From assembly GCA_951394045.1 (NCBI GenBank), contig OX595999.1, positions 496,001 to 560,000 of the forward strand: DNA of 64,000 bases, read 5' to 3'. This document shows, piece by piece, positions 57,698 to 64,000 of the stretch. The translations under genes were made by a program, and so were the position numbers. The notes below the pieces were generated by a model. The model did not search any database. It had not been told where the DNA came from and saw only the letters and a program-made list of their open reading frames with translations. Each line of letters starts with the position of its first letter. Positions within the stretch are counted from its first letter, which is position 1. The stretch is from Nitzschia sp. DOCU1 (taxonomy: Eukaryota > Bacillariophyta > Bacillariophyceae > Bacillariales > Bacillariaceae).

Positions 57698-60602
57698 TCA
57701 TACGTAGACAACGACGACGCTCACGTTGTCGGTAGTTCCCTTCTTGACTGCCATGGAACATAAGCTTCTCGCCGCGTCTCTCGCATTAAGTCCCTGTTGT
57801 TTCATCTTATGCAGAATTGATGCCACTTCCTCTGAGTCCATGACTTCCCAAAGTCCATCTGTCGCCGACATGAGGATTTCGTCCGGTCCGACCAAGGTTT
57901 TCGATATGTCAGCATCACTCACAATGCCTTTAGAGGTCACGTAGGGCCCTTCCAATGAGCGTCCCACCGCATATTCATACATTCCGGTGCTGATGTACCA
58001 CTTAGAGAATTTGCATTTCGGTAGGGAATAATCCAAACCGGCAGCAATACCTTGCATCAATCGTTCTTCTTCTGTTTGTGGAGTGTGGTCCTGAGTCACG
58101 AACTGAACCTTGCCATCTACAGTGACGACCATACTTCGGGAGTCACCACAGTTCAGCACTACTAGCACTCCATTTGTCTCGTCTAGAGCCATAACGGAAG
58201 CTGTTGTCCCGGCAATCAGGTCTTCAGATCCAGTGTTGGCCGTCAATACACCTTCTCGAGAATCGTAGTCGGCTATACATTGTTCTTCATCGGCACATTG
58301 TTGCTGATAGGACTGACAAATCATGTTCCACGAAGCCAGCAACGCCTGTTCCAGGGGCAGTCGGTTGAACACAACTTGATTTCTCAAAACAGTTGGGAGT
58401 TCGGTCGATACTTTGGTTGAAGCTGCAGTACCGCCATGCCCGTCCATGACCCCCATGATCAAAACAGACCGATCTTTTGTGTCGTGAATCTCGTGAAGAA
58501 CTTGAAGGCACAATTGACGGAATAGGCAACTCATTAGTACAACGAGTACGAATCGGAACATCGCCGACGACACCTCCCCACTCCCCAAGTAGCGATCACT
58601 TACCAAATGCATCTTCTTGGGTCTGCCGTCTTCCCATGGTAGACCAGACCCCTTGATCGACAATCTCAATGGCGGTCTGCGTGGTTGGAACCATGGAAAT
58701 CGCAATCGCCTCATTCTCTCGCACTCGAAGACGGTCAAAATGCAAAATTACATTTCTGGTGGACCTAGGTTGATCTTGTAACATTTCCACAGCTTTTTCA
58801 AAGCCACCCGTGGAAAACGTCAACTCACCGATACCCTGAAGTCGATCGCCAATTTCAAAGATGCCCAATTCGTCGGCTTGTCCACCTGGAACTATCTCTT
58901 TCACGAAGACTTCTCCCGGAAGCGCGTCCTTGGTCGCTTCGGACCATAGGAACGAGTCTTCGCTATCGTCATCTACACCACTGTCTTCAGCGTCGGCTTC
59001 GGCAAAGACCAGCCCCAGAGGCTTGTTGCGCGAAAACGTTGCCACAAAATGCAACGGTCGACTCACCGAGGGCAATTCACAAGCTTCCATAGCGTCTAAA
59101 ACCATGGCAAAGAATGCCCCATCGCGTTCTTCGAGAGTAGCACGTTTATCATAGTCGTCATTCTTCAAATTGATGGATTTCTCCTCAAGGATTTTTGCTA
59201 GCCGTGCTTGGGCCTTTTCGGCAGTGGGGCGTCGATTCGGCTCTGCTTCCAGCATGTGTTGTAGCAACGACCATAGACCTGGTCGCTCTCCCAAATACTC
59301 CAGGGCCCGTTCGAGCCCATCCGGTCGAAGTTTGCTCGCCAACTCATTGTACAACCACGCATTCAAATCCCATTCGGCATCTTGAAGTTGTTGATGAAAG
59401 CCGGCATCCACTCGCTCTTCCAAGTATCCAAACAAGAGTTGACAAAACAATAACGCTGATGAAAATAGATCGAATGCCAGAGGTGCATTGTAGATATCCA
59501 CAAAGACTTCTGGAGCACAATAAATCGGAGATACCGCAACGCGATTGCCGTCTTCCAGTCCCCAGTAGCGAGTTCCACCACCGAGAAATGACGTGACACC
59601 TCCCGACTTGACGGGTTCCAGATCTGCCGCCGATCCAAAATCCAGTAACAATAAAGCTCCATCGTGAACCAATAAATTGCTTGGTTTGATATCTCGGTGG
59701 ACGATCTTGTAGGAATGTATAAGAGCCAATACGTTCAAAAGAGAATCAAGGGTCTTGTCTAGAGTCTCCCCATCAGTCGAACATTTCATGGCCTCTCCAA
59801 TATTGCGCAAAAAGTGCTGAGGAGTGTCCCACTCCGACGACGACGAATCTCTTTGTTCCTTGAGAAGTTTCAGTTCCTCGAGGTCTCGCTTCATCAAATC
59901 CGCCAAGGAGGGTGCCGGTTGAGGCCTACTAGAGGCACCATTTTCGGGGGTTCCGACGAGTCCAAAGATCATCCATTCTTCCTCACCTTTTTGCTTCTTC
60001 TTATTGTTGTTGCCATTACTACTAGAACTGTTGGCAAGAGTTCCATAGTAAGGTGGTAACTGGGGATGAGCAGGCAGTTTGGAAAAGCAGTGCTCTTCCA
60101 CTTGCCAGTAATAGAGGCATCGTGCGGCTCGTTCTTTAAAGTCCTTGGGTTTGGTTGTGGATCCCTGTTGTTCTTTTCCACTACTTTTACTTTTGCTGCT
60201 GCTCGATGCACTTGCTTCTTGCTCCTGTAGTTCGGATTCGGTCCATGGACGCTTGCCAATACGCCACTGTGGCGGTTTCTCAACCTTGTCGTCGTCGTCA
60301 TTGACGACTTGCAAAAAGTGAACTGTTCCATACGATCCACTTCCGATGCAATCGTCTACCGATCGAATAATGGACGTAGTAGAAGAATATTCTTTGGTTT
60401 CCTCCACATTCGATTTTGCTACACCAAAGAGCCGAGAAGAAGATACCGGGATAACTTGGCATTGACTAGCAACTCGATGGTGGTGATGGTGACCCGAGGG
60501 AAATGCAAAGGCCGCTGCCAGCTGCAACGAAAACCCTGCGTATGGGTTCGCCAAGGCCAGGACTAGTAGGAGCCATGACGGACCAAGATGTAGTTCTCTC
60601 AT
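57698..60602 (-). CDS. Predicted plastid protein kinase-PDZ-PP2C phosphatase fusion
   Basis: Two exons, 60602-58604 and 58500-57698, give 933 aa. The 103-bp intron splits a Val codon and rebuilds the start of the PP2C domain. A signal peptide (1-28) runs into AAAFAFPSG, a plastid ASAF-like motif. The kinase domain has the Gly loop IGSGSYGTV (87-94), HRDIKPSN (302-309), DFGSA (321-325) and CAPEVF (362-367). QQLQDAEWDLNAW recalls the STN7/STN8 thylakoid kinases. A PDZ domain covers about 517-625 (PLGLVF, VFVKEIVPGGQADELGIFEIGDRL). The PP2C domain (646-933) has QTQEDAF, GVMDGHGG, NCGDSR, SATDGLWEVMD and TDNVSVVVVYV with the metal-binding Asp residues. Kinase and phosphatase sites both look intact. 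In plants STN7/STN8 and the PP2C enzymes TAP38/PBCP act as separate opposing proteins on light-harvesting and PSII proteins. A similar target here is inference. Confidence 0.87.
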
Positions 60603-61054: not shown

Positions 61055-61522
61055 ATGACAATTATGGATCTCTCAACTGCTTGGAGATCGCCATTGGCCC
61101 TGGTCCAAGATCCAGTGTATTGGCTAGGCCTTCCCATTGGACTGCTATTTGGAGCCAGCGGTTACCAACACTTGGTGAAACCCTTTCCCTACATTACCAT
61201 GATGCGGGGCATGCCCTTTTCATCCTGGCATCCTGCAATTGTCACAGTCTCGGGTTGGATTGAACTGGGCGTCGGTGCTGCCTGTGTGATGCAGCCGTCA
61301 GCACCCGTCTTTACATTTACACGCTATCTCACGCTGGCCATTACGCCCGCCAACATTAACATGTGGTACAACAATGCACCGTTTGGAAACGCCTACTTTA
61401 CACCCAAGCAACATGCCATTCGGGGAGTCTTACAAGTAGTCCTTTTGGCGTGGCTGTGGGGGTTAGAGAAAGCGTATCTTTCGAGAGGCGAGGCCGCGTC
61501 GTCTCGATTGAAAGAAGATTAG
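61055..61522 (+). CDS. DoxX-like four-helix membrane protein
   Basis: 155 aa. Four hydrophobic helices are seen. The block GYQHLVKPFPYITMMRGMPF followed by VSGWIELGVGAACV matches the DoxX-like pattern, in which a Pro-rich loop and a SGxxExxxG helix recur. ITPANINMWYNNAPFGNAYF fits the usual third loop. The tail is short and basic. Start could be the first or the second Met (MTIMDL). DoxX-family proteins are linked to quinone or redox functions in bacteria, but the eukaryotic members are uncharacterised. Confidence 0.75.
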   Translation: MTIMDLSTAWRSPLALVQDPVYWLGLPIGLLFGASGYQHLVKPFPYITMMRGMPFSSWHPAIVTVSGWIELGVGAACVMQPSAPVFTFTRYLTLAITPANINMWYNNAPFGNAYFTPKQHAIRGVLQVVLLAWLWGLEKAYLSRGEAASSRLKED

Positions 61523-63450: not shown

Positions 63451-64000
63451 TTATTGATCTGCACGTGAACTCAAGCGAAGCTTGCACCCATCGCTTGGAA
63501 TTGCCGTCAGTCGATAAGCCAGCGTGTCATTGGGGTTGATACATTCCATGTCATACTTCATGGCCAGGGCGGCCACAGCAATCTTGGCCTCGAGCATGGC
63601 AAAGTGCTTTCCAATGCAATCTCGAGGTCCCTTCAAGAATGGCATGTACGCCTTGGTATTGTGGATACGGCCGGGTCCGTCGTCCAGCCATCGTTCCGGT
63701 TCAAAGATATCTGGGTCCTGAAAGTTTTGCGGCAGCCGTTGCATAACATAGGGACTGATGTACAAAAAAGCACTTTTACCACCAATTGAGTATCCATTCC
63801 AAGTTTCGTTCTCATCCAGAGTCATTCGGGCTGTGGACCCCGGTGGATACATACGCAGTGTTTCGTTCAAAACGGCGGCCAAATAGGTGCACCCTTGTAG
63901 AGTTTCCATCACGGGTCTTGTTGTACCTGGGGATGATCCGTTCTCGGTAATAATCATTTTCTGAATGATAGGAGCCTTTGCGGATAGCTCCTCTCGAAGT
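63451..64000 (-). CDS. Cytochrome P450, C-terminal part (5' end outside window)
   Basis: The frame is open from the window edge to the stop at 63451, 183 codons. The K-helix ExxR motif is AVLNETLRMYPP. The PERF-like region is FEPERWLDD. The haem loop is FLKGPRDCIGKHFAMLEAK with the thiolate Cys. The segment LREELSAKAPIIQK before the first in-window Met fits the J-helix, so that Met is not the start. The missing N-terminus (about 330 residues) would hold the membrane anchor and I-helix. The P450 family and substrate cannot be set from this part. Confidence 0.92.
   Translation of the reverse strand, partial: LREELSAKAPIIQKMIITENGSSPGTTRPVMETLQGCTYLAAVLNETLRMYPPGSTARMTLDENETWNGYSIGGKSAFLYISPYVMQRLPQNFQDPDIFEPERWLDDGPGRIHNTKAYMPFLKGPRDCIGKHFAMLEAKIAVAALAMKYDMECINPNDTLAYRLTAIPSDGCKLRLSSRADQ

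Follow-up and report, generated by a model that had tools for sequence, protein, structure and literature searches.

A 64,000-nucleotide window of the genome of the diatom Nitzschia sp. DOCU1 (contig OX595999.1, positions 496,001 to 560,000) carries a two-exon gene whose spliced product is a single protein with, in order, a presequence, a protein kinase domain, a PDZ-like domain and a PP2C phosphatase domain (Table 1). We propose that this is a nuclear diatom gene for a plastid-targeted bifunctional Ser/Thr kinase-phosphatase whose kinase and tethered PP2C would share substrates, a reading for which we see the balance as even.

Translation of the joined minus-strand exons gives 933 residues, or 934 codons with the stop counted. 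No start codon precedes the ATG at 60602 in its frame, and from this ATG the open reading frame (ORF) of exon 1 extends over 668 residues (675 from stop to stop). Read without splicing, exon 1 runs into a stop two codons beyond the first PP2C motif (QEDAFGK-stop). An open frame is by itself weak proof of the splice, because 26 GT..AG pairs within the examined region, the proposed intron included, keep the frame open; homology settles that the splice and the single polypeptide are real. The family consensus across the junction, RRxxQEDxF-VLHEIHD, is exactly the sequence that the splice produces, and 98 of 140 family proteins carry on across it, mostly with VLH or ILH after the motif; each of these is an intronless frame, a transcript or a spliced gene model, so that they attest the joined sequence and not always an intronless gene. 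Ten full-length members derive from transcripts. A further 16 of the 140 end at most 34 residues past the motif, at the intron position of the window gene, and in all 16 the motif is followed by G, the residue expected from a phase-1 GT intron; the motif is missing in 26. Since one of the 16 is an annotated protein of the centric diatom Conticribra weissflogii (P0133), the intron position is probably old. The single spliced polypeptide with exact phase that the initial annotation had described is upheld by the phase-1 join and the read-through relatives, as is its observation that the intron splits the PP2C start motif, RRQTQEDAF ending exon 1 and the consensus continuing with VLHEIHD. A second common end point lies inside the PDZ region in relatives P0090, P0097, P0106, P0107, P0108, P0111 and P0141, which suggests another old intron, missing from the window gene.

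Table 1. Features in the window (positions within the window; residue numbers are those of the 933-residue protein)
Feature	Position	Strand	Details
Exon 1 (presequence, kinase, PDZ-like domain, first PP2C residues RRQTQEDAF)	58604-60602	-	1999 nucleotides; translation, ORF
Intron, within first PP2C motif	58501-58603	-	103 nucleotides; GT-AG, phase 1; GTAAGT...TTCAAG
Exon 2 (remaining PP2C: DGHGG, DG and DN motifs; stop codon)	57698-58500	-	803 nucleotides
N-terminal presequence, residues ~1-43	60474-60602	-	hydrophobic core, LAAA-FAFPSG (ASAFAP-like), then His/Ser/Arg stretch
STN7/Stt7-like kinase domain, residues ~78-475	59178-60371	-	GSGSYGTV, K117, E169, HRDIKPSN, DFG, APE
PDZ-like domain, residues ~512-625	58728-59069	-	weak Pfam match; model strands and helices
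Small protein, 155 residues, adjoins the kinase-PP2C gene	61055-61522	+	weakly MauE-like, under cut-off
Cytochrome P450, C-terminal part, runs past window end	63451-63999	-	E 7.1e-27

The comparison of sequences indicates that the family is conserved within diatoms. A search of 5.8 billion proteins, which scores only the candidates sharing most words, returned 113 matches, 111 of them at E<=4e-84, followed by two PP2C-only proteins at 1e-5. The 111 were combined with 29 new proteins from a second search (found among the best 120 of its 170 matches) into the family set of 140. Most members come from sources without an organism name, and all 15 that are named among the matches listed are diatoms: Nitzschia, Cylindrotheca (2), Pseudo-nitzschia (2, one by the code Psemu1), Seminavis, Mayamaea, Astrosyne, Thalassiosira (2), Attheya, Fistulifera, Amphora, Conticribra and Ditylum (four taxonomy identifiers were checked, and the other genera are taken by us to be diatoms). 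The domain order is common to relatives from centric and pennate diatoms, which answers the check for the same order in other diatoms that the initial annotation had proposed. In the 52-Mb genome itself one copy was found: of the 15 matches in the list, the top two correspond to the gene's own exons, the others are partial matches to a kinase or PP2C, at 2.5e-12 or weaker, and no second copy came up. We met no account of the diatom family in the literature surveyed, a survey that left most subscription papers outside, and the accessible part of the paper on the genome of the non-photosynthetic diatom Nitzschia putrida makes no mention of it (PMC9054022; statements from this and the other papers cited refer to the accessible part of each).

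Both enzymatic domains are recognized by Pfam, the kinase (PF00069) at residues 276-465 (E 1.7e-18, 67.4 bits versus a cut-off of 31.7) and the PP2C (PF00481) at residues 654-926 (E 1.1e-24, 88 bits versus a cut-off of 20.3). The AlphaFold2 model of the exon-1 ORF has a mean predicted local distance difference test score of 82, and the kinase and PP2C folds are those seen in models only. Residue conservation was counted over the 76 full-length rows of an alignment of 112, with 36 set aside (9 short at the kinase end and 27 without PP2C), the catalytic roles of individual residues being those generally known for the two folds. Kinase residues E169, D304, K306, N309, D321, G323 and E365 and PP2C residues R659, E663, D664, D686, G687 and D786 are identical in all 76 rows; K117, D881, G882 and D924 are identical in 75, with one gap each, and N925 is replaced once by H. 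The catalytic sets that the initial annotation had called complete are indeed so, the full-length rows show no loss of essential residues, and the alignment argues that diatom evolution has preserved both enzymes intact. In the PP2C part, cysteines C735, C741 and C784 are never replaced in rows that cover them, and C728 (71/76) and C829 (75/76) are nearly invariant, a pattern that invites the idea of redox control but does not show it. A specific origin of the PP2C from TAP38/PPH1 was considered and is unsupported by sequence (1.5e-8, versus 7.5e-15 for 2i0o) or by structural Z score (ABI1, 28.8, and PPM1K, 28.6, are ahead); Foldseek leaves a near tie, with the TAP38/PPH1 structure 4yzh fourth. 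No clear special link to TAP38/PPH1 thus emerges.

The kinase domain belongs with STN7/Stt7 in a wide sense only. It is closer to these proteins than to other kinases, with score ranges that overlap, and the window gene is its own genome's best match to STN7. An STN profile scores 30 diatom kinases (out of 106 kinase domains) at 70.9-113.2, and with a diatom kinase profile, 20 STN proteins reach a median score of 100.0 (weakest 56.6). The search that gave Micromonas P0143 (below) listed 120 of its 172 matches. The tree and profile scoring drew on 22 kinases from 37 own-genome loci tried; the genome has 134 kinase matches in all. In a tree of the quick type, with long stems, the diatom kinase forms a separate deep branch beside STN7. 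Nesting inside STN7 was not found in this tree, whose branches are long and whose three single-clade groups give no root and by themselves cannot say which two are sisters.

Two features of green STN-type proteins set the diatom family apart. A C-x(3-5)-CG cysteine pair occurs in none of 99 diatom proteins versus 10 of 24 green ones, and all ten green proteins that have it also carry a 19-residue hydrophobic segment of at least 1.47 before the kinase. Past the signal peptide, only 1 of the 99 diatom proteins (four of them too short) has a segment that reaches 1.2, and likewise 1 of 99 at 1.45 or above; several levels of this score were tried on the 24 green proteins, and 1.6 was passed by only 2 of 15 green proteins. 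The pair is not universal, since 14 green proteins, Micromonas types among them, are without it. Plant STN7 senses redox through this pair; because the diatom family lacks it, plant-type redox sensing by the same means is unlikely. By these sequence features the diatom kinase is not STN7/STT7 in the strict sense. Of the STN7/8-like kinase named in the initial annotation, the likeness to STN7/Stt7 stands, but the diatom domain sits on its own branch and lacks both the cysteine pair and the hydrophobic segment.

The N terminus has the appearance of a plastid presequence. Usable N termini, scanned with a custom script and not with SignalP or ASAFind, were available for 99 of 141 family proteins, the window protein included, and 83 of them have a strong hydrophobic core. 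Among these 83, an ASAFAP-like site, defined as (A,V,S,G,T,C,L,I)-x-(A,S,G,T,C) followed by F, W or Y, is present in 74, versus a mean of 39.6 and a maximum of 52 in 200 shuffles; because the rows are related, the 74 cannot be counted as independent. An F at position +1 of the ASAFAP motif is common among diatom plastid proteins (PMC4329603). The window protein has both core and site, which agrees with the presequence initially annotated; a plastid-type presequence appears conserved in the family and would place the protein in the plastid.

Between the two enzymes, the AlphaFold2 model has PDZ-like strands and helices. Pfam detects PDZ above its cut-off in one of 10 relatives scanned (P0142, 2.3e-5), weakly in three and at E 0.05 not at all in six; in both structure searches, kinase or PP2C chains took up the match list, which left no room for PDZ matches. 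A PDZ-like domain also lies N-terminal to an STN-like kinase, the reverse of the diatom order, in P0176, P0182, P0185 and P0238, for all of which Pfam lists PDZ (P0176 over the cut-off). Micromonas types P0143 (under the cut-off), P0145, P0149 and P0157 likewise have a PDZ-like stretch before the kinase, the last three as judged by eye. Since these Micromonas types and some relatives carry it at the N-terminal side, the pairing of STN-type kinase and PDZ exists in two orders; the likeness between the N-terminal and C-terminal PDZ sets is weak.

The sequences document the structure of the gene, the order of its domains, the intact active sites, the conservation and the type of presequence; the location, both activities, a shared substrate and any redox or light input are inferred. 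In the proposed mechanism, the bipartite presequence would deliver the protein to the stroma, where its PDZ-like domain would anchor it to a partner protein. The kinase would phosphorylate a few proteins of the stroma or thylakoid surface, the tethered PP2C would dephosphorylate the same few, and the level of phosphorylation would be set by a signal acting on a single kinase-phosphatase protein. If so, one molecule may add and remove the same kind of chemical tag in the plastid. The role in light-harvesting or photosystem II phosphorylation raised by the initial annotation is a putative one. A bolder version, in which diatoms swapped separate thylakoid kinases and phosphatases for a tethered writer-eraser acting on the same photosynthetic proteins, and in which the PP2C cysteines (C735, C741, C784 and, nearly, C728 and C829) let plastid redox choose the winning activity, strikes us as rather doubtful.

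Several observations weigh against the bifunctional reading. When the 111 relatives with a letter at the position are counted, incomplete rows included, single exceptions occur at H302, E365, E663, D664 and D786. In the window protein itself the Pfam PDZ match (residues 563-610, E 0.02) is sub-threshold, at 15.7 bits versus a cut-off of 23.2; the PDZ domain of the initial annotation therefore survives as PDZ-like, with the modelled strands and helices and P0142 in its favour. Protein P0141 of Ditylum, which has entries in jgi, uniref and mmetsp, stops in the PDZ and has no PP2C; its source may be a transcript for the kinase alone or one left unspliced. With regard to the kinase, the sequence match to Stt7 lies mainly in the C-lobe, and two of three own-genome leads are narrow (1.2e-7 versus 3.9e-7, and 1.0e-6 versus 3.3e-6), the runners-up being short matches. 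A family-profile search of the PDB has no Stt7 in the top 60 of 438 matches, which are PP2Cs and other kinases, mostly of the MAP-kinase type. Finally, the target of the fused phosphatase may be the attached kinase and not a shared substrate.

This last point leads to a self-regulating kinase, in which the PP2C would mainly dephosphorylate the attached kinase or a PDZ-held partner and serve as a built-in off switch or timer. The presence of both domains in one chain in 76 full-length rows is consistent with it, as are Ser-rich stretches within the kinase N-lobe region of the window protein, but the available facts fit shared substrates equally well; we regard self-regulation as a possible but unlikely alternative. 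That the protein is a plastid regulator resembling plant VTC3, concerned with metabolism or light acclimation and not with phosphorylation of light-harvesting proteins or photosystem II, is improbable. VTC3 has an N-terminal kinase and a C-terminal PP2C, is reported to be a chloroplast protein and is required for light-induced ascorbate accumulation (PMC12675267, PMC11066809). An unverified VTC3 kinase sequence, hence a lead and not a test, reaches 73.3 bits when scored with the diatom profile, more than any of the 22 own-genome kinases or the weakest STN protein. The same unverified sequence scores only 33.0 with the STN profile, below the range of the 30 diatom kinases, and the high median of the STN proteins with the diatom profile also speaks against a VTC3-like regulator.

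An ordinary eukaryotic kinase without specific relation to STN7 would agree with the PDB profile search, the two narrow own-genome leads and the long tree stems with their undecidable sisterhood; set against the reciprocal profile scores and the genome's best match to STN7, we consider it very improbable. Two separate products, a kinase-PDZ protein and a PP2C whose fusion is only apparent, would suit P0141 of Ditylum, but are largely refuted and carry next to no probability, since exon 2 alone is without R659, E663 and D664, the intron splitting the first PP2C motif, and since ten full-length relatives derive from transcripts; separate genes or a wrong splice are likewise ruled out by the read-through relatives and the split motif.

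The same genome holds a second kinase and PP2C open frame (locus L061, 17-3973; G000:C4:3192500-3197200), of 1318 residues from a TTG. It resembles the window gene in having kinase then PP2C in one frame and differs in its kinase type (44.0 bits with the diatom profile), in showing no PDZ in Pfam and, by eye, in a zinc-finger-like stretch between the domains and in DFS replacing DFG.

Compared with known systems, the diatom family differs from STN7/STT7, and from Micromonas MsStt7d (PDB 4ix3), by its deep own branch by the lack of the CxxxxCG pair and of the hydrophobic segment, and by its C-terminal PDZ-like and PP2C domains. Micromonas P0143, whose identity to the MsStt7d fragment is 93%, has its PDZ-like stretch at the other end, N-terminal to the kinase. 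The diatom PP2C is not nearest, by sequence or Z score, to TAP38/PPH1 (PP2C 57), the phosphatase of light-harvesting complex II (LHCII). VTC3 is not known to have a PDZ domain, and on the unverified sequence its kinase is not STN-like. The initial annotation had contrasted the fusion with thylakoid kinases and phosphatases kept as separate enzymes; this holds in Chlamydomonas, where STT7 phosphorylates LHCII and the separate PP2Cs PPH1 and PBCP dephosphorylate it (PMC11314055), but plants do have a kinase::PP2C fusion already reported in the chloroplast, VTC3, with kinase then PP2C in a single chain (PMC12675267, PMC11066809) and a lineage of green plants and red algae (PMC11066809). Because VTC3 is known, the idea of a kinase-PP2C fusion is not new. 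What appears new, against the literature surveyed, is the combination of an STN7-type kinase, a PDZ-like domain and a PP2C in one chain, kept in diatoms: the genome's best STN7 match brings its own phosphatase along, which bears on whether writing and erasing are coupled in the plastid.
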